From positions 620,001-684,000 of the forward strand of contig NZ_RKLR01000001.1 of the NCBI RefSeq assembly GCF_019599465.1: DNA of 64,000 nt. The letters run 5' to 3'. The notes beneath the pieces are model-generated. The model was not told where the DNA came from, ran no database searches, and was given only the letters and a program-made list of their open reading frames with translations. This document shows positions 28,873 through 37,952 of the stretch, piece by piece (position 1 is the first letter of the stretch; the number at the start of each line of letters is the position of its first letter). The translations under genes and the position numbers were made by a program. This DNA comes from Haloarcula rubra. GTDB lineage: Archaea; Halobacteriota; Halobacteria; Halobacteriales; Haloarculaceae.

Positions 28873-29522
28873 GCGACGCCGAACCACACGCCGGACAGGA
28901 AATCGTCACGTCGGGGGCACCGCCACAGGCCGCTGAGGCGGCGGTCATCATGCTCCACGGCCGCGGCGACTCGGCGCGGCATTTCCTCCGACTCGCCGAC
29001 GAGTTCCACCACCACGGCGCGATGTACCTCGCGCCGGAGGCCGCGGGCAAGGCGTGGTTCCCGGGGCCCGCCGACGCCCCCGACGAGCGCCGAGCGCCGT
29101 GGCTCACCTCGGCGTTCTCGCTGGTGGAGCGCACGCTCGACCGGGCGGCGGCCGCCGGCGTGGCCCCCGAGCGCACCGTCTTCGTCGGTTTCTCGCAGGG
29201 CGCGAGCGTCGCCGGGGCGTACGTCGCCGCCGACCCGGCCCGCTACGGCGGCCTCGCGATGCTCGCGGGCGGCCTCCTCGGCCCGGACCCCGTCGCCGCC
29301 GCCGACTCGGGGTCGCTGGAGGGGACGCCCGTCTTCGTCGGGTGTGGCGACGAGGACCCCTACATCTCGCCGGACCGCGTGCGCGCGACGGCCGCGGCGT
29401 TCCGGGCACTGGACGCCGACGTGACCGAGCGGGTGTACGAGGGGGTCGGCCACGCCGTCAACGACGACGAGATAGCGGCCGTCGACGCCCTCGTCGCGGC
29501 CGTCGCCGACGGCTCAGCGTGA
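28869..29522 (+). CDS. phospholipase/carboxylesterase family hydrolase (MhqD-like)
   Basis: This encodes 217 residues. The alpha/beta-hydrolase triad is visible: S109 in VGFSQGAS, D163 in GDEDPY and H195 in GVGHAVND; the oxyanion loop is MLHGRGDS. The family includes carboxylesterase 1/2 and MhqD. The ATG overlaps the dioxygenase stop by four bases, so the two are translationally coupled. Its 3' end overlaps the convergent antiporter by nine bases. Confidence 0.9.
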   Translation: MSDAEPHAGQEIVTSGAPPQAAEAAVIMLHGRGDSARHFLRLADEFHHHGAMYLAPEAAGKAWFPGPADAPDERRAPWLTSAFSLVERTLDRAAAAGVAPERTVFVGFSQGASVAGAYVAADPARYGGLAMLAGGLLGPDPVAAADSGSLEGTPVFVGCGDEDPYISPDRVRATAAAFRALDADVTERVYEGVGHAVNDDEIAAVDALVAAVADGSA

Positions 29523-30701
29523 GGCGACGCGGTGCCTGAGTCCCGCGATGTCGTCGGCGCGGTGGAGGAGGACGCTCCCGGCGACGCTGGTCAGGAGGAC
29601 GTAGCCGACGGTGAAGGCCGGAATCGTCTCCGAGAGCGTGGGCGTCGTCCCGGCCGCCGTGAGGAACGCGGCGATGACCAGCGAGAACTCGCCGCGTGGC
29701 GTCAGCGCCGCACCCATCCGGACCGCGCCGTCCGCGTCTAACCCGAACGCCCGCCCGGCGTAGTAGCCGCTGACGAGTTGCCCGGCGAGTGTCACCGCGC
29801 CCGCACCGAGGACGAGCGGCGTGACGTCGGCGACCACGCGGGGGTCGGTCTGGACCCCGACCCAGACGAAGAACACGACGGCGAAGACGTCCCGGACCGG
29901 CGCGAGGTAGCGCTCGGCCTCCGCGGTCAGGTCGGCGTTCTGGAACAGCCCGCCGGCGAGGAAGGCGGCGACGGCTTCGCTGGTTCGGGTGAGCGCCCCC
30001 AGACCGGCGACGAAGGCCGCGACGCCGAGGGCGGCGACGACGAACAGGTCCCCGCGGAGGGGTCTGAACGCCCGACCGAGACGGTCGGCGCCGCGGAGCG
30101 TCACGCCGACGACGGCGAGTAAGAAGACGACGCCGACACCGAGCGACCGGGCGAGGTCGAGGCCGCTCCCGCCCGCGACCAGCGCCGAGAGCACTGCGAA
30201 CAGCAGCGCTGTCACGATGTCCTCGACGACGACGACGCCGAAGATGGCGTCGGCGGTCCGGGACCCCAGCCACCCGGCGTCGACGACGGACTTCGCGATG
30301 ATGACCGTCGAGGAGTTGAACACGACCAGCGCGAGGAAGCCCGCTTCCAGCGGCGTGAACCCCACGGCGAGGCCGACGAGGAAACCTAGCGGGAGGCTGA
30401 CGCCGACGTCGACGCCGCCGGCCAGCGCGAACGCCCGCCGCTCGGCCAGCAGTTCGTCGACGCTCAACTCCAGCCCCACGAAGAACAACAGCAGGACGAC
30501 GCCGAGGGCCGCCGGAAGCGAGAGGAGCGTCGGGAGCGCGACGCCGACGGTGTCGGTCCCGAGACCGACGCCGAACGGGCCGAGCGCCACGCCGGCGAGG
30601 ATGTACGTCGGGATGACCGACTGGCCGACACGCTGAGCGGCGAGCGCGAGCGCGACCAGTCCGAGTAACGACACACCGGCGACGAGCAACGGGTTCGCCA
30701 C
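29514..30701 (-). CDS. cation:proton antiporter (KefB/CPA2 type, KhtU-like)
   Basis: This encodes 395 residues with about 12 membrane helices, the CPA2 monovalent cation/proton antiporter fold. FFVGLELSVDELL, VVFNSSTVIIAKSVVDAG and PRGEFSLVIAAFL are typical of KefB/KhtU/GerN transporters. It lacks the C-terminal TrkA-N domain found in KefB itself. The gene just upstream encodes a separate TrkA-C protein, so the pair resembles KhtT-KhtU, a K+/H+ antiporter with its own regulator. Confidence 0.88.
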   Translation of the reverse strand: MANPLLVAGVSLLGLVALALAAQRVGQSVIPTYILAGVALGPFGVGLGTDTVGVALPTLLSLPAALGVVLLLFFVGLELSVDELLAERRAFALAGGVDVGVSLPLGFLVGLAVGFTPLEAGFLALVVFNSSTVIIAKSVVDAGWLGSRTADAIFGVVVVEDIVTALLFAVLSALVAGGSGLDLARSLGVGVVFLLAVVGVTLRGADRLGRAFRPLRGDLFVVAALGVAAFVAGLGALTRTSEAVAAFLAGGLFQNADLTAEAERYLAPVRDVFAVVFFVWVGVQTDPRVVADVTPLVLGAGAVTLAGQLVSGYYAGRAFGLDADGAVRMGAALTPRGEFSLVIAAFLTAAGTTPTLSETIPAFTVGYVLLTSVAGSVLLHRADDIAGLRHRVASR

Positions 30702-30704
30702 GAC

Positions 30705-31178
30705 TCAGTCGAGGTGGGCCGACAGTTTCGCGTGGGCCTCGTCCGTACCGACGGTGACCAGGACGTCCCCGGCCTCGACGTGCGTCTGCGCGTCGGGGCT
30801 CGATATCGTCTGCTCGCCGCGCTGGACCGCGAGGACGAGGACGCCCGTCTCGCTCCGAATCGCGCTCTCGCCGAGCGTCCGGCCGACGACTGGGTCGTCC
30901 GGCCCGACCTCGACCCAGCGGATACGCGCGTCCTCGAGAGCGTGGTCTATGTCGTCCGGTGCCGGTTCGAAGTACGTGCCGTCGTATATCTCGGCGAGTT
31001 TCCGGGCCTGTCCCTCGGTGAGCGAGAAGAGGCGCTCGCTGTCGCCGTCTTCGTCCGCTCGCCAGTACGTCTCGCGGCTGCCGTCGTTGCCGAGGAGCAC
31101 GGTCAACCGACCGCCGTCCGGGAACGACACCGCGTAGCGACGCCCGACGCCCGGGAGCTCGGTCTCGTAAACGCGCAT
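30705..31178 (-). CDS. TrkA-C domain regulator (KhtT-like)
   Basis: This encodes 157 residues. The N-terminal 70 residues are a small domain seen in KhtT-like regulators (VYETELPGVGRRYAVSFPDG). Residues about 75-157 are the RCK C-terminal domain with RIRWVEVGPDDPVVGRTLGE and SSPDAQTHVEAGDVLVTVG. It precedes the antiporter by three bases. In Bacillus such a protein gates KhtU on nucleotide binding. It is soluble. Confidence 0.88.
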   Translation of the reverse strand: MRVYETELPGVGRRYAVSFPDGGRLTVLLGNDGSRETYWRADEDGDSERLFSLTEGQARKLAEIYDGTYFEPAPDDIDHALEDARIRWVEVGPDDPVVGRTLGESAIRSETGVLVLAVQRGEQTISSPDAQTHVEAGDVLVTVGTDEAHAKLSAHLD

Positions 31179-31376: not shown

Positions 31377-32708
31377 ATGAGACTACGGATACCAGTACTG
31401 TTAGGGATTCTCGTCCTCGCACCGGTGGCCGCGACGCCGGTGGTGGACGCACAGACACAGGCATCCGAGCCGACCGCGATCACCGAGTGTCGGACCATCA
31501 CCGAGTCCGGCCGGTACGTCGTCACGCAGACCCTTTCCCGAGAGGAACTCAGCGACGACCCCTGTCTCCGCGTGCAGGCGAGTGACGTCGTCCTCGACGG
31601 GCGGGGACACACCATCGAGGTTCCCCGTTTGGCGACCCCGGTCAGCGTCGGCGTCGAGGACCGACGGCTCTCGAACGTGACGGTGCGTAACCTCAGCGCC
31701 GACAACTACTACGAGGCGTCGGCCATCGCTGTCGACGGCGTCGACGGCGTCACCGTCAGGAACGTCACGCTGTCGGACAACCGCGTCGGCCTCTCGGTGG
31801 TCGACTCTACGGCCGTCCGCATCGAGTCGAGCGGGTTCTACGGCGCCGGTGGCTTCGGTGCGACGACGACGCCGTCGGGGTACGGCGTCGCCCTCTCGAA
31901 CACCACGGACACCGTGATAGTCGACAACAGGTTCGCCAGGTTCACGCGCGGGACCGCGGTCAGCGTCGACCACGGGGCCGCGAACACGACGGTCGCGAAC
32001 AACAGCATCCGTGGCTGCGTCGAGTGCGACGAGTCACTGGAGTTCGAGTGGCACGGCGGAGGTGCGGACGCCGGGACGGCCGTGGAGGTCACCTGGTCGA
32101 CCGGGACGACGGTCGTGAACAACTCCATCTCGTACCACGCCGACGGCGTCGTCGTCGGCGGAGATGCGACCGACACGGTGGTGCGGCGCAACCGAATCAC
32201 GCGCACGAGAAACGGCGTCCTCGTCGCGACGACCGGACCGACCGATACCGGTGACACCGACCGGCGGACGCTCGTCGCGAACAACACGCTCCGGACGAAC
32301 GCCGTCGGTCTGCGGGCCGCCTCGACGCACGTGCCGCTGGTGGTCCGACACAACGTCATCGCCGGAAACGACGTGGGACTGTCCCTGCCCGAGGTCAGCA
32401 TCTGTCCGCCCGATGCCGGCGGTACCGAGCGCACGACGGTCAGTCGGAACGCCATCGTGAACAGCACGCTGTGGGCGGTCAACAACGAGCGGGCGGCCAC
32501 GCTGAACGCGACGGACAACTACTGGGGCACCGCCAGCGGCCCGTCGAGCGCGAACGACACTGACGCCCCGTTCACCGACCCGGTGACCGGGACGCTCGCG
32601 GACGGGCAGGGCAGCGCCGTCTCGGAGTCCCCGACGACGGCGGGCGAGTCCAACGTCCACTTCGACCCGTGGCTGAACGAGTCGGTAGCCGAGGCCGGGG
32701 CGCCGTAG
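31377..32708 (+). CDS. secreted right-handed beta-helix protein (NosD-like)
   Basis: This encodes 443 residues. A signal peptide runs to about residue 25 (ILVLAPVAATPVVDAQ). Parallel beta-helix repeats follow, with the turn motif NVTVRNLSADN, GVTVRNVTLSDN, TTVANNSIRG, TVVNNSIS and TLVANNTLRTN recurring every 20-24 residues, as in NosD/CASH proteins. The Asn-rich turns suit N-glycosylation. It may bind or modify polysaccharide or surface protein; no catalytic site is clear. TATA-like TTTAAT at 31306-31311 lies about 69 bp upstream. Confidence 0.85.
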   Translation: MRLRIPVLLGILVLAPVAATPVVDAQTQASEPTAITECRTITESGRYVVTQTLSREELSDDPCLRVQASDVVLDGRGHTIEVPRLATPVSVGVEDRRLSNVTVRNLSADNYYEASAIAVDGVDGVTVRNVTLSDNRVGLSVVDSTAVRIESSGFYGAGGFGATTTPSGYGVALSNTTDTVIVDNRFARFTRGTAVSVDHGAANTTVANNSIRGCVECDESLEFEWHGGGADAGTAVEVTWSTGTTVVNNSISYHADGVVVGGDATDTVVRRNRITRTRNGVLVATTGPTDTGDTDRRTLVANNTLRTNAVGLRAASTHVPLVVRHNVIAGNDVGLSLPEVSICPPDAGGTERTTVSRNAIVNSTLWAVNNERAATLNATDNYWGTASGPSSANDTDAPFTDPVTGTLADGQGSAVSESPTTAGESNVHFDPWLNESVAEAGAP

Positions 32709-33122: not shown

Positions 33123-35552
33123 TCAGTCGTCTGCGACGGTCGGTGCGGTCGGCTCCGCCGCGTCGACGTCGGGACTCTCGGACATCGGCGTCCACGCCAA
33201 CTCGTCCTCGTAGTGGAACGCACGGTGGTCCTGCGTCGGGTCGACGACGGTCAGCGAGAGCCAGCCGTTGTCGAGCAGGTCGGTGAGTTCCTCGTGGTCG
33301 GCCAGCACGTCGGTGACGCGGTCGACGGGCGCGTGAATCACCGTCGAGAGGCGCAGGGGCTGGTGGTGCGGGTCGTCGTCGGCGGCCATCACGGACTGGT
33401 GCGGGAGGCCGGTCATCAGGTCGCCGCCGTTGCCCTGATAGACGCCGACGTTGCCGACGGGGTTGTGGGTGACCTTCGACCCGCTCCCGAAGACGGCGGT
33501 GTCGACGGTGGCGAAGTAGTACTGGCTGTTTATCCACTGGGTGACGACCATCGGGCCGGGCATGATGGCCGCCAGCGCGTCACCGTCGGGGTCGGTCGTC
33601 CAGTCGTAGGAGTGGAGGAACGCGCGCCCGTCGAGGTCGAGGCCCTCGGTCAGGTCGCGAGGCCCGACGACGAACCCGGCGTTGCCGGCGAGGCCCCACT
33701 CGGGGCGCGTCTCCGCCCAGTCGGCGGCGCGGCGCTCCGTCTCGCGGACGCCCGCGCCTTCGGCACCCATCGAAGCGGCGCGTTCGGCGGCCGCTCCCTC
33801 GCGGGCGGTGTCGAGGTCCGCACGGAGCTGTTCGAGGTCCTCGCGGTGGCTCGCTGGAACGCCGTCGTCGTAGAGCGTCACCTCGTCGGTCGTCGTGTTG
33901 TGCTCGCCGGCGAGGAAGACGGTGTCCTCGGGGACGTCGAACCCGCGCTCGCGGAGTTCCTCGACGACGGCCTCGTCGTTGCAGATGGCGGCGAGGACGC
34001 GCGCGCTCGGTCCACCGGGGTTGCCGGCACAGGCGCCGCAGTCCAGACTCGAATCGAACGGGTTGTTCGCCGTCTCGCTGGCGTGGCCGGTGAACACGAC
34101 GAGGCGGCCGAACGTCTCCCACCCCATCAGGTCGAAGGCCGTCGCGGCGTACTCGACTTTCTCGTCGAGGGTGAGCCCCTCGCGGAGTTCGTGGACGCCG
34201 TCGGGGTTGTAGTCCACGCCGGGCGCGCAGAACTCGTGGTCGTCGGGGGTGCGGTCGTCGGCGGCGTCGAGGAGGCCGGCGGCGCGGGCCGGCGCGAGCG
34301 TGCGGGCCGCCAGCGCGGCCCCGTAGCCGCTCCCGGCCGTCTCGACGAAACTGAACGCCGTCGCGGCGTTCTTCTTGAGCGACGCGAGCAGTTCGCCGCC
34401 GGCGTCGAGTGTCGCCGACCAGCGGTCGTAATCGGCCTGCGTGCCGTCGGCGTCCTTCGTCGGGCGGTCGGCGACGTGGTGCTGTGCGTCGACGATGGGC
34501 GGGCAGGCGTCGACGGCCACGTCGGCGTCGTACCCCTCGTAGCGCATCGGGACGCCGAAGAAGCCGGCGTAGCCGTGCGTGTCGTAGTCGCCCGTGGCTT
34601 CGAGGTGGCGGCGGAGTATCTCCGAGCGGGTGTCGATACAGAAGACGAGTTGGGCGTCCGGGCGGCCGCCATCGTCGGCCTCGGCGTGGGACTCGCTGGC
34701 GTCGCTGACGGCGTCGACCAGTTCCTCGCGATAGCTGGCCTCCCACGCGGTCAGCCAGCACTCGCGCAGCGGGACGTCCTCGCGCTCGCCGACCGGGTCG
34801 ACGGTGCGGGTGGTGCCCGGCGCGTCGAGGGGGTCGATGGGCGCGCCGACCAGGTCGGCGAGCGTCAGGCGGACCGCCAGGTACCCCGCGAGCGTGATGG
34901 GGTACTCCGACTGCCAGTCGCCGCCGTCGGCCGCGCGCTGCTTGACGTAGCCCGTCCAGCCCGGGAGAGCCGTCAGGTGGTGTTCGAAGACGTCCGGCAG
35001 GCGGTCGGCCGGGTGGTCCGCGAGGAGGTGTTCGAGCGCGTCGACCGGGTCCTCGGGCAGGTCGGCGATAGCCCCGGCGTTCGGAAGCTCGCCGTCGTGA
35101 CGGGCCACGGCGTGGAACGCGGCGTAGAACCCCTGTTCACGGTTCGGCATCGACCACTGGGCCTGCCCCTGGTCGAGGAACGACGACAGCCACTTCGTCA
35201 GGAGGCGGTCCACCTCGTCCTCGACGGTCTGCTCGGCGTCCGCGTCGGTCGACGGCGAGTCCATGCGCTCCAGCGACGTCTCCGGGTCCGTGTCGTACCC
35301 GTGGTCGGCCAGTTCGGCACGCAGGACTCCGGGGGCTATCTTCCCGGCCTCCCAGGCCCGGCGGAACACCTCGGGGCTCGGGTAGCCGTCGGCGTCGAAC
35401 AGTTCCTCGGCCTCCGAGACGGCCCCGTGGAACGGCTGGTCTTCGAAGCCCGAGAGCGGGTTGGCCGTCACGAACGAGTGGAGCGGCCAGGCGTCTCCGA
35501 CCGCGGTCGCGGCCTGTTCGATACTGTCGCGAATCTGGGTCTCAGTACTCAT
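33123..35552 (-). CDS. dabA: DabA, DUF2309 subunit of the inorganic carbon transporter
   Basis: This encodes 809 residues, the DUF2309 (UPF0753) family. In bacteria DabA forms a complex with DabB and acts as a proton-driven, carbonic-anhydrase-like bicarbonate accumulator. The zinc site of the characterised DabA is Cys, Asp, His, Cys with the last two 15 apart; here C305 and D307 in FCIDTRSE, H490 in FTGHASET and C505 in LDCGACAG keep the spacing. HSFVTANPLSGFEDQPF near the N-terminus and TQWINSQYYFATVD near the C-terminus are further family blocks. It overlaps the dabB stop by 11 bases. Confidence 0.92.
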   Translation of the reverse strand: MSTETQIRDSIEQAATAVGDAWPLHSFVTANPLSGFEDQPFHGAVSEAEELFDADGYPSPEVFRRAWEAGKIAPGVLRAELADHGYDTDPETSLERMDSPSTDADAEQTVEDEVDRLLTKWLSSFLDQGQAQWSMPNREQGFYAAFHAVARHDGELPNAGAIADLPEDPVDALEHLLADHPADRLPDVFEHHLTALPGWTGYVKQRAADGGDWQSEYPITLAGYLAVRLTLADLVGAPIDPLDAPGTTRTVDPVGEREDVPLRECWLTAWEASYREELVDAVSDASESHAEADDGGRPDAQLVFCIDTRSEILRRHLEATGDYDTHGYAGFFGVPMRYEGYDADVAVDACPPIVDAQHHVADRPTKDADGTQADYDRWSATLDAGGELLASLKKNAATAFSFVETAGSGYGAALAARTLAPARAAGLLDAADDRTPDDHEFCAPGVDYNPDGVHELREGLTLDEKVEYAATAFDLMGWETFGRLVVFTGHASETANNPFDSSLDCGACAGNPGGPSARVLAAICNDEAVVEELRERGFDVPEDTVFLAGEHNTTTDEVTLYDDGVPASHREDLEQLRADLDTAREGAAAERAASMGAEGAGVRETERRAADWAETRPEWGLAGNAGFVVGPRDLTEGLDLDGRAFLHSYDWTTDPDGDALAAIMPGPMVVTQWINSQYYFATVDTAVFGSGSKVTHNPVGNVGVYQGNGGDLMTGLPHQSVMAADDDPHHQPLRLSTVIHAPVDRVTDVLADHEELTDLLDNGWLSLTVVDPTQDHRAFHYEDELAWTPMSESPDVDAAEPTAPTVADD

Positions 35553-37029
35553 TGTAGTCCTCCTTGGCAGTCAGGACGGTGTCAGCGGGGGGTTGGCTCA
35601 GGTTCAGGAGCGCCACGTACAGGCGCTGGCTGTGCTCGTACGCGCCACGCTCGATGGCGACGTAGACGGCGAGGAAGGCGGCCGCGACGGCGCCGTGGAC
35701 GAGCGTCAGGTCGGCGGGCGCCGTGACGACCGGCACGCCGACCAGCAGTGCGTGGACGAGGTTGTAGGCGAGGGCGTAGACGGCTATCGCCGGCAGGAAC
35801 ACGAGCGGGACGGCCCCGAACCGGACCGCGGCCGGCAAGTCGGTCTGCGCGACGGCCGTGCGAGTCGCGTGTAGCGTCGTCAGCACCACCAGTCCCGCGA
35901 GCAGGAGGCCGCTGTCGAGGTGCGTCCCCTTACCGGTGAGGGCGGCGAAGACGGCACCGCCCGCGAGCGCGGACAGGATGGCGACGCCGGCACCGAGGAC
36001 GCCGGCCGACTGTGACTCGGCCCCGCCCGGTGCCGTCTGTTCGACCTGTTCTCCCGCCGAGAGGAACTGGTAGGCCTTGTAGAACCCGTGCAGGACGAGG
36101 TGTGTGAGCGCCGCGCCGAAGAAACCGAGGCCGGCCTGCATTATCATGAAGCCCATCTGGCCGACCGTCGAACAGCCCAGTTGGCGCTTCACGTCGGACT
36201 GGACGGTCTTGAGGAGTTTCCCCACCAGCGCGCTCGTCGCGCCGACGACCAGCACCAGGAGCATGAACTGCGCGTCGGCGGTGACCACCGGAGCGAAGCG
36301 GACCAGCAGGACGCCGCCCGCGTTGACGAAGCCGGCGTGCATGAGCGCCGACGCCGGCGTGGGGGCGGTCATCGACGAGAGCAGCCACGTGTGGAACGGT
36401 ACCAGCGCGGACTGTATCATCGCCGCCAGCAGGAGCGCCCCCGCCGCGACCAGCCACGCGGTCTGCGGGACGGTGTCGGCGGCGGCCACGATACCGGAGA
36501 CGGTGGTCGTCCCCGTCGACAGCGACAGCGTCACGAGCGCGACGGTCAGCAGGGCGCCGCTCGCGAGGAAGTAGCGGCGAGCGAGTGCGGCCGCGGCCTG
36601 TGCCTGTGGCCAGCCACGGACGTGGCCTATCAGGTCGGCCATCAGGAGTCCCATGGCCACCCACGCGCCGGCAAAGAGCGCGACGTGGTCGGCCGCGACC
36701 AGCACCATCACGGCCAGCGTGAACGCGAACACGCCGCCGAAGAAGCGGTCTATGGTCTGGCTCCCGGCCATGTAGCGGCGCGAGTAGCTGTGGACGATAC
36801 CGCTGAAGAACGTGACGACCACCCACATGACGGCGGTCAGTCCGTCTACGGCAGCCACGCCGGGCAGCGTCCACGCGCCGTCGACGGCGAATCGGGCGAC
36901 GAGAACGCCGAGGCTGGCGACACACAGCGCCCACACGACGCGTGTGAACACTCGGGGCGCCAGCGACGTCGACTCCGTCCCCGTGTTCGGTAGCTGTCCG
37001 ACCGCCGTCGTCTGCTGTTGTTCTGTCAT
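35542..37029 (-). CDS. dabB: DabB, NuoL/MrpA-like proton-translocating subunit
   Basis: This encodes 495 residues with about 13-14 membrane helices. NuoL/M features are visible: SYSRRYMAG, IQSALVPFHTWLLSSMTAPT, ALMHAGFVNAGGVLLVRFAP and STVGQMGFMIMQAGLGFFGA. In the Dab system this subunit supplies proton flux to drive bicarbonate capture by DabA. It lies upstream of dabA and the two overlap. A stray complex-I subunit is the alternative, but the linkage with DUF2309 argues for Dab. Confidence 0.92.
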   Translation of the reverse strand: MTEQQQTTAVGQLPNTGTESTSLAPRVFTRVVWALCVASLGVLVARFAVDGAWTLPGVAAVDGLTAVMWVVVTFFSGIVHSYSRRYMAGSQTIDRFFGGVFAFTLAVMVLVAADHVALFAGAWVAMGLLMADLIGHVRGWPQAQAAAALARRYFLASGALLTVALVTLSLSTGTTTVSGIVAAADTVPQTAWLVAAGALLLAAMIQSALVPFHTWLLSSMTAPTPASALMHAGFVNAGGVLLVRFAPVVTADAQFMLLVLVVGATSALVGKLLKTVQSDVKRQLGCSTVGQMGFMIMQAGLGFFGAALTHLVLHGFYKAYQFLSAGEQVEQTAPGGAESQSAGVLGAGVAILSALAGGAVFAALTGKGTHLDSGLLLAGLVVLTTLHATRTAVAQTDLPAAVRFGAVPLVFLPAIAVYALAYNLVHALLVGVPVVTAPADLTLVHGAVAAAFLAVYVAIERGAYEHSQRLYVALLNLSQPPADTVLTAKEDYNEY

Positions 37030-37189
37030 CGTTTGTTCCGTGCCGACCGGTCACCGCCGCGGGCGTCTCGGGCCCGTGACGGTCACCGGTCGCGTTCGTC
37101 CACCTATACGAACAAACTGGTTATTAAAGTCTTCTATTCGACCAAAACGTTCCCGATATTGCGTATTATAGAACATTATGTTTTCGTGG
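37030..37189. promoter_or_regulatory. promoter region between dabB and the structured region
   Basis: This spacer is notably AT-rich. On the reverse strand, TATA-like CTTTAATAA (37121-37129) and CGTATAGG (about 37102-37109) could start the dab transcript with a leader of roughly 50-70 bases. On the top strand ATTATA (37165-37170) could start a transcript near 37192. Confidence 0.45.
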
Positions 37190-37490: not shown

Positions 37491-37952
37491 CTACTCGGAC
37501 CTGAACTCGCCGAACGGCGTCGTCTCGTGGCTACGGACGAGCACTTCGTCGGCGACGGTCAGCCCCATGTCGAGCAGTTTCTGTGCGACGGGCGTGATGT
37601 CGCTGTCCGTCTCGCCGACGACGGTGACGAGGAGGTTCTGCTCGCCCGTGACCAGTTCCTGTACGGAGACGACGCCGTCTATGTCGAGAATCTCGGGGAT
37701 AAGCTCGCCACGCTCGGGTATCGAAGCGGTACAGAACAGCAGCATCCGGAGGGGATACCCCGACTGCTGGTAGTCGACCTCGGCGCTGTACCCCTTGATA
37801 ATCCCGTCGGACTCGAGGCGCTGGATGCGCTTGCGAACCGTACTGTCGGACGTGCCGGTCCGGTCGGCGATGTCGCCCGACGACGTGTTTCGAGCGTCCT
37901 CCTGAAGCGCGTGGATGATCTCCTTGTCCACTTCGTCTATGTCGTCGCCCAT
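37491..37952 (-). CDS. Lrp/AsnC family transcriptional regulator
   Basis: This encodes 153 residues. An N-terminal HTH (VDKEIIHALQEDARNTSSGD, then RTGTSDSTVRKRIQRLESDG) is followed by a RAM/Lrp-type ligand domain with IIKGYSAEVDY and GEQNLLVTVVG. Such regulators respond to amino acids or other small molecules. The gene lies upstream of dabB across the structured region, on the same strand; a link to dab regulation is only positional. A TATA-like GCTATATCG lies about 75 bp upstream on the reverse strand. Confidence 0.92.
   Translation of the reverse strand: MGDDIDEVDKEIIHALQEDARNTSSGDIADRTGTSDSTVRKRIQRLESDGIIKGYSAEVDYQQSGYPLRMLLFCTASIPERGELIPEILDIDGVVSVQELVTGEQNLLVTVVGETDSDITPVAQKLLDMGLTVADEVLVRSHETTPFGEFRSE

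Follow-up and report, generated by a model that had tools for sequence, protein, structure and literature searches.

DAB2 of H. neapolitanus imports CO2 with vectorial hydration (PMC13144422). In its cryo-EM structure, zinc is held by C351, H524, C539 and water, while D353 pairs with R355 to form an Asp-Arg dyad. DAB2 complements carbonic anhydrase (CA)-deficient E. coli and the conserved residues are required for this, whereas an ion pair modulates DAB2 without being required, its loss only weakening the complex (PMC13144422). For the homologous MpsAB of S. aureus, which is also found in a heterotroph, the supply of DIC is interchangeable with that by carbonic anhydrase, and sodium bicarbonate cotransport has been proposed (PMC6689103). 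DAB-type systems and CA rarely coexist in Firmicutes, and their co-expression in S. aureus brought no benefit (PMC8552792). Haloferax volcanii has the haloarchaeal dabAB genes HVO_2410/HVO_2411, which were assigned by homology to a CO2 transporter in a paper whose main text does not mention a regulator or an operator (PMC8305020). DACs have also been reported in heterotrophic Halobacteria (PMC10880623).

The dabBA locus of Haloarcula rubra described here lies in a stretch of 64,000 nucleotides of contig NZ_RKLR01000001.1 (the window; Table 1). Such pairs are common and already known in haloarchaea, and this locus is a further member of the known system. What is new is a regulator gene and a conserved control site next to the pair, for which we found no earlier description in the literature and which provide a handle on the control of inorganic carbon in archaea. 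We propose that the haloarchaeal DAB complex probably traps CO2 as bicarbonate for anaplerotic and biosynthetic carboxylases, and that dabBA is under a dedicated Lrp-type regulator.

Table 1. Features of the dabBA locus, numbered by position in the window
Feature	Position	Strand	Description and basis
dabA	33123..35552	(-)	809 aa; cytoplasmic beta-CA-like subunit; PF10070 and residue mapping to DabA2 (9rd0)
dabA residues			C305, H490 and C505, zinc; D307-R309, dyad; E404, membrane-finger coupling glutamate
dabB	35542..37029	(-)	495 aa; NuoL-like membrane subunit; PF00361/PF00662, best PDB match DabB2 (9rd0_B)
Conserved promoter site, putative operator	37110..37157	(-)	48 bp; GAAC (37149-37152)-N35-GTTC (37110-37113), around the TATA box
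dabB TATA box, CTTTAATAA	37121..37129	(-)	Within the 48-bp site; sequence and motif
Third half-site, ATAATGTTCTATAAT	37165..37179	(-)	TGTTC begins 22-23 bp upstream of GAAC in 75/82 loci
Lrp/AsnC-type regulator	37491..37952	(-)	153 aa; precedes dabB, same strand; HTH matches, PDB sequence and fold matches to Lrp/FFRP proteins

The DabA-DabB gene pair

In a profile search, DabA matches PF10070 over 747 of 747 positions (876 bits, E 3.6e-263). In the PDB it has a single relative, DabA2 of H. neapolitanus (9rd0_A; E 1.4e-106, ~36% identity). The alignment places C305, D307, H490 and C505 at DabA2 C351, D353, H524 and C539, with a His-to-Cys spacing of 15 in both proteins, and R355 (R309 here), S356, H585, D590 and E444 (E404 here) are also kept. 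The zinc ligands, the dyad, E404 and the other mapped residues are identical in all 115 aligned haloarchaeal DabAs. The sequence-only reading of this DNA had recognized DabA and DabB, with the active site intact, this 15-residue spacing and an overlapping NuoL-like partner; all of this is borne out, the overlap is 11 nt, and the coordinates and strand are exact. It listed C305, D307, H490 and C505 together as zinc ligands, which is correct for the two cysteines and the histidine, but D307 belongs to the dyad with R309 and is not a resolved zinc ligand.

DabB keeps seven of the seven proton-path residues mapped from DAB2 (S227, H231, K281, S287, H310, H314 and K318). The DabB2 ion pair R182, D185 and K235 is replaced by L155, G158 and Q206; it is missing from every aligned haloarchaeal DabB, with Q at the K235 position in 111 of 112, and is variable in bacteria. 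We recognize a DAB/DAC complex by full-length PF10070, the Cys-His-Cys ligands with the Asp-Arg dyad, the coupling Glu and an adjacent PF00361 partner with the proton-path residues of DabB2, each of which is found here; the ion pair was not counted as defining. A role of DabB as the complex I subunit NuoL was rejected, as the TIGR01974 score of 170 bits falls short of the 407.5 cut-off and dabB adjoins dabA. Judged by sequence, the two genes encode a complete DabA-DabB complex whose conservation is far beyond chance.

The locus shares with H. neapolitanus DAB2 the dabB-dabA unit, the zinc ligands, the Asp-Arg dyad, Glu444, Leu658 and the seven proton-path residues. It differs in DabA sequence, at the identity given above, in the missing ion pair, in the lack of a RuBisCO or carboxysome context and in having an Lrp-type rather than a LysR-type neighbor. 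In the bacterial loci examined, dabB is preceded by LysR-type genes.

Proposed CO2 hydration and ion coupling

By analogy with DAB2, we infer the activity and ion coupling of the complex: zinc-containing, beta-CA-like DabA on the cytoplasmic side would convert CO2 to bicarbonate only during ion flow through DabB. Hydration tied to ion flow would make the reaction one-way and trap CO2 in the cell. The earlier description of the pair as a bicarbonate collector is imprecise, since DAB2 imports CO2, and the homolog MpsAB is the only one with a proposed symport of bicarbonate.

A Na+-coupled bicarbonate importer of the MpsAB kind, powered by the large haloarchaeal sodium gradient, is a possible but rather unlikely alternative. 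The residues R182, D185 and K235, present in proton-driven DabB2, are missing from the haloarchaeal DabBs and likewise from the sampled Staphylococcus protein (a relative from S. pettenkoferi), and Staphylococcus falls on the haloarchaeal side of the tree, though on a long branch. Sodium coupling is proposed for MpsAB, and this would be a difference from proton-driven DAB2. The invariant zinc site, the dyad and the coupling Glu fit CO2 hydration instead, and the effect of ion-pair loss on DAB2 is only a weakening. Since both kinds of protein retain the seven proton-path residues, the sequence does not decide between H+ and Na+.

Distribution among haloarchaea and probable role

The genome search suggested in the sequence-only reading found no RuBisCO in the Haloarcula rubra genome, and the host is therefore very probably a heterotroph, as had been expected. 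It did find one PEP carboxylase, along with two beta-carbonic anhydrases. The finding of dabBA in a heterotroph had been called surprising. This does not hold for Halobacteria, where such systems have been published and where DabA is present in 238 of 391 genomes (61%) and 53 of 84 genera, independently of RuBisCO: both are found in 88 genomes, DabA only in 150, RuBisCO only in 52 and neither in 101 (p = 0.59). A CO2-concentrating device for autotrophy or RuBisCO-based fixation has precedents in the DAB of H. neapolitanus and, judged by neighboring genes, in Nitrobacter, where dabA adjoins RuBisCO and carboxysome genes. It is extremely improbable here, as the genome content and the statistics of the class speak against a CCM for RuBisCO.

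The nearest named relative by DabA is Haloarcula pellucida (94% identical). A DabA phylogeny had been suggested as a check for transfer. In the tree, 31 haloarchaeal sequences form one clade (100/99) distant from nine bacterial sequences, a small and long-branched sample, and recent acquisition from bacteria is unsupported.

DabA is present in 34 of the 37 genomes that lack beta-CA, in 14 genera (Fisher p = 2.4e-5; these are raw genome counts that ignore phylogeny). The three genomes with neither are G129, G184 and G303. Carboxylases, buffering and anaplerosis had all been named as possible uses of the bicarbonate. Anaplerosis is the best supported of these by the PEP carboxylase, the independence from RuBisCO and the beta-CA-less genomes, and the high frequency of DabA in the latter makes bicarbonate supply for anaplerosis the likely role of DabAB. 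The bicarbonate would go to PEP carboxylase and similar anaplerotic or biosynthetic carboxylases, beside the two beta-carbonic anhydrases.

It is very improbable that the main role is pH or ion homeostasis, through buffering by bicarbonate or through DabB acting as an ion channel. In favor of it, DabB resembles antiporters, and 2-3 kb downstream of dabA there is a Na+/H+ exchanger-like gene, together with a TrkA-C partner. This exchanger-like neighbor, however, does not recur near other dab loci, the zinc site is strictly conserved and DabA is complementary to beta-CA.

Counting against the proposed trapping of CO2, some of the accumulated bicarbonate should be lost again through the action of cytoplasmic beta-CAs. 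DabA and beta-CA nevertheless occur together in 204 of the 391 genomes (again a raw count), in contrast to Firmicutes. DAB and a cytoplasmic carbonic anhydrase are thus both kept by over half of the haloarchaeal genomes, a puzzling pairing that is said to make little sense. A secreted partner CA was considered as an explanation and rejected, as the linked canonical CAs inspected by eye begin with a cytoplasmic-type N-terminus.

A linked Lrp/AsnC-type regulator

The gene upstream of dabB encodes an HTH (PF13404, 48.6 bits) and a C-terminal half with a beta-alpha-beta-beta-alpha-beta order that is RAM-like in a moderate-confidence predicted model (mean pLDDT 64). Nearly all Foldseek matches of the model are Lrp/FFRP proteins. 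The AsnC-type HTH and RAM-like half are shared with P. furiosus LrpA (1i1g) and a halophilic Lrp (8q90), though the fold search puts the identity to such relatives at about 21-25%. The protein reaches no curated NCBIfam equivalog. The combination of an AsnC-type HTH with a predicted RAM-type domain points to an Lrp/AsnC-type protein. The sequence-only reading overlooked this gene and the promoter site.

The regulator is linked to dabBA in 79 of 80 named loci. By raw counts that ignore phylogeny, it is present in 234 of 238 genomes with DabA and in one of 153 without; of the four DabA-positive exceptions, two have dabA remnants, and in the other two dabB or dabA lies close to the end of a contig. 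Its identity of 74-97% exceeds the conservation of DabA. No other gene recurs around dabBA save an amidohydrolase (33 of 80 loci). We propose from these patterns that the regulator is dedicated to dabBA.

The conserved promoter site

The motif derived from 82 sequences has 52 bits and a fixed spacing across genera. Mean pairwise identity is 70% in the site, against 35% and 30% in the adjoining control stretches. In the Haloarcula rubra genome, the dabB promoter has the single site within 3 mismatches, which leaves no extra operator copies for a wider regulon in this genome. No further copies at >=22 bits occur in the remainder of 1.66 Mb of loci, and the site is found at neither the two beta-CA loci nor the PEPC locus.

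The Lrp-type regulator would bind the TGTTC, GAAC and GTTC half-sites around the dabB TATA box and, placed on all three, would control whether TBP/TFB can reach the promoter. The signal to which it responds is probably the CO2/bicarbonate status of the cell or a metabolite reporting it. It is improbable that the Lrp-type gene just travels with dabBA while another, general factor reads the conserved site. Linkage by co-transfer alone would also yield the co-occurrence, and we infer regulator binding to the site, as well as its sign and signal. However, the regulator is better conserved than DabA, the uniqueness of the site in the genome argues against a global factor, and one genome (G129) keeps regulator and site together without dabBA.

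Regulator and site, conserved throughout the class Halobacteria, would form a one-gene, one-promoter control unit with a defined putative operator. A response of the regulator to CO2 or bicarbonate would make it an Lrp-family sensor of carbon status in archaea, in place of the bacterial LysR-type genes.

A regulator without dabBA

G129 is the one DabA-negative genome with the regulator and is also without beta-CA. It might point to a self-contained haloarchaeal regulon for inorganic carbon, with a single regulator and a single promoter. The regulator would be an Lrp switch responsive to CO2/bicarbonate, which serves dabBA in the normal case but here, with neither DAB nor beta-CA, would drive a NarK-like MFS protein as a new kind of bicarbonate importer; we regard this as speculative and unlikely. 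The G129 orthologue of the regulator is 70% identical and shares an operon with the MFS transporter. In this single genome (n = 1), the MFS promoter has a weaker copy of the site (29 bits), spaced from the ATG as in front of dabB, in which the GAAC half-site is not kept.

The DabA-DabB pair

The dabB and dabA genes of the window overlap by 11 nt and encode what is, on sequence grounds, a genuine DAB complex with predicted transport activity. The PF10070 profile covers DabA end to end (876 bits), and the closest solved relative of DabB is DabB2 of Halothiobacillus neapolitanus. When aligned to the DabA2-DabB2 structure of that bacterium (DAB2, PDB 9rd0), the zinc-site residues C351/H524/C539 correspond to C305/H490/C505 and the dyad D353-R355 to D307-R309. 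The sequence-only reading had named C305, D307, H490 and C505 as zinc ligands. This stands for the two cysteines and the histidine but not for D307; zinc in the DAB2 structure has three protein ligands and water, and the Asp is part of the dyad (PMC13144422). The membrane-finger E444 is E404 in the window, and S356, H585, D590, A376, F378, R653, W656 and L658 (DAB2 numbering) are also conserved. DabB retains S256, H260, K310, S316, H339, H343 and K347 (DabB2 numbering), mutation of which impairs DAB2 (PMC13144422).

The DabB2 ion-pair residues R182/D185/K235 align with L155/G158/Q206. This difference from DabB2 is uniform in haloarchaea: R182 and D185 are conserved in none of 112 aligned DabBs, and K235, the aligned counterpart of the TM7 lysine in NuoL, is replaced by Gln in 111 of them. 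These positions vary among seven bacterial DabBs (K, R, A or P at 235), of which the Staphylococcus protein likewise lacks all three residues. The loss is compatible with function because these residues tune DAB2 and are dispensable (PMC13144422); the ion coupled may be H+ or Na+.

Two other features lie near dabA. Genes for a TrkA-C domain protein and, behind it, a PF00999 Na+/H+ exchanger-type membrane protein likely form a two-gene cation antiporter 2-3.6 kb downstream, and a NosD-like protein is encoded convergently with dabA.

Coordinates of the features discussed (L-numbers denote individual loci)
Feature	Sequence	Position	Strand	Remarks
dabA	window	33123-35552	minus	809 aa; PF10070
dabB	window	35542-37029	minus	495 aa; PF00361 + PF00662
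Lrp/AsnC-type regulator	window	37491-37952	minus	nearest upstream neighbour of dabB, in the same orientation; AsnC-type HTH
Na+/H+ exchanger-type protein	window	29514-31178	minus	PF00999
NosD-like protein	window	31377-32708	plus	right-handed beta-helix; apparent signal peptide
Amidohydrolase	L115	5100-6116	minus	PF01979, chlorohydrolase-like; tail to tail with regulator
MFS-Usp-Lrp operon, convergent cooC-like and Ni-CODH (cooS) genes	L118	6510-12061		genome G129
CA-like ORF	L040	7662-8300	plus	between lrp and dabB
Beta-CA	L103	12467-13144	minus	immediately downstream of dabA
Beta-CA	L108	12519-13196	plus	immediately downstream of dabA
Beta-CA	L082	12587-13249	plus	immediately downstream of dabA
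DabA-DabB (MpsAB-type) pair	L129	2510-9122		flanked by two IS6 transposase genes

Distribution in haloarchaea

Of 391 haloarchaeal genomes with a completeness of 90% or more, 238 carry PF10070; by genus the figure is 53 of 84. When species genomes were scanned, 379 relatives came up, and among those with a name the one from Haloarcula pellucida is closest (94%). DACs, as DAB-type complexes are also called, have been stated for heterotrophic Halobacteria (PMC10880623), and HVO_2410/2411 of Hfx. volcanii are annotated as dabAB (PMC8305020). The pair, thought surprising in a presumed heterotroph, thus belongs to a family already known from haloarchaea and is unexceptional within it. When 31 haloarchaeal DabA sequences were placed in a tree with nine from bacteria, the haloarchaeal proteins formed a single clade (support 100/99); the bacterial side, small and long-branched, names no source for the transfer that had been proposed for checking. 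Branching within the clade mixes families, and plasmid-borne copies occur in Haloarcula, Halorientalis and Halorussus. This suggests that DabA has long been present in haloarchaea, with exchange among them. An MpsAB-type pair between IS6 transposase genes was also seen on a mobilizable Staphylococcus pettenkoferi plasmid.

A conserved Lrp/AsnC-type regulator

The gene upstream of dabB encodes an Lrp/AsnC-type protein. All its PDB relatives are Lrp/FFRP proteins, and its model (moderate confidence, mean pLDDT 64) shows a b-a-b-b-a-b unit at the C-terminus, grouped by Foldseek with Lrp proteins. Of 80 named loci, 79 have this gene upstream of dabB in the same orientation, and the other one is a short contig; regulator identity across them (74-97%) exceeds that of DabA. 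The orthologue group, set in the class survey by the gap between best matches (E <= 7.2e-65 vs E >= 5.8e-48), includes 234 of 238 genomes with DabA but 1 of 153 without; the two no-match genomes in this count were taken as G353 and G355, the sole ones absent from the match table. Among DabA-bearing genomes outside the group, dabA is only a remnant with large internal losses in G206 (L121, L123) and G273 (L120, L122); in G196 it begins 0.9 kb away from the end of a contig, and in G021 the contig starts 1.1 kb before dabB. An amidohydrolase gene between regulator and dabB (33 of 80 loci) is the only recurrent extra gene; no other neighbour exceeds 8/72 loci downstream of dabA or 6/73 upstream of the regulator. 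In contrast to this Lrp-type gene, bacterial loci carry a LysR-type gene upstream of dabB (Mesorhizobium, Ideonella, Leisingera, Salinivibrio and Niveispirillum, the genera whose loci were fully read with an intact upstream region).

A candidate operator at the dabB promoter

Ungapped alignment of 82 dabB upstream regions gave a 48-bp motif, GAAC-N35-GTTC with TTTAATA in between (52 bits). Mean pairwise identity is 70% in its 43-bp core vs 35% immediately downstream and 30% upstream. Of 80 loci, 78 have an intact GAAC and 78 an intact GTTC, and in 75 of 82 regions TGTTC/CGTTC begins 22 or 23 bp before GAAC. Scanning 1.66 Mb of loci with the motif matrix recovered the site in 78 of 80 and found no second site of at least 22 bits. 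The window genome holds one occurrence within three mismatches; a reversed control pattern gave zero matches in the same search. Since the site sits over the TATA box, the sequence suggests that binding there would govern promoter access, for repression or for activation. The conserved regulator and operator, with putative binding of one to the other, are undescribed as far as the literature searched shows, and they open the regulation of archaeal inorganic carbon supply to testing.

Genome G129 lacks both DabA and any beta-CA match and carries the regulator orthologue (70% identical) as the last gene of an MFS - universal stress protein - regulator unit. The MFS gene is preceded by a 29-bit copy of the site, whose end lies 78 bp from the start codon, close to the usual dabB placement; GTTC, the TATA-like stretch and the upstream TTGTTC are conserved and GAAC is lost. 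The MFS protein is NarK-like, below the family cut-off. Convergent to the regulator are genes for a CooC-like ATPase and a Ni-CO dehydrogenase (TIGR01702, 611 bits), an enzyme that produces CO2. As a single case, this arrangement suggests that the regulator may track inorganic carbon, with the MFS protein as a putative replacement of DAB in G129.

Carboxylases and carbonic anhydrases

The genome, searched for RuBisCO or PEP carboxylase as had been advised, has one PEP carboxylase and no RuBisCO; it also has two beta-CAs with intact CxDxR/HxxC motifs. Across the 391 genomes DabA and RuBisCO are independent (odds ratio 1.14, p = 0.59). Of the 37 genomes that lack a beta-CA match, 34, from 14 genera, carry DabA (Fisher p = 2.4e-5, uncorrected for phylogeny), and 388 of 391 genomes carry DabA, beta-CA or both. 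In Firmicutes, MpsAB (the Staphylococcus aureus relative) and CA are mutually replaceable and their coexistence is said to be rare (PMC8552792). The haloarchaeal counts of DabA and beta-CA fit this mutual replacement and, with the PEP carboxylase, this supports the suggested supply of bicarbonate to carboxylases. Unlike in Firmicutes, both occur together in 204 of 391 genomes. DAB plus cytoplasmic CA in one cell is thought wasteful.

Of the 80 named loci, 17 have a CA or CA-like ORF no more than 10 kb from dabBA. In six of these it is placed between lrp and dabB (L040, L046, L083, L088, L107 and L114); the one fully read, L040, has CSMSN at the CxDxR motif, with loss of the Asp-Arg dyad. Canonical beta-CA genes immediately downstream of dabA were seen in several genera, at L103, L108, L082 and others.
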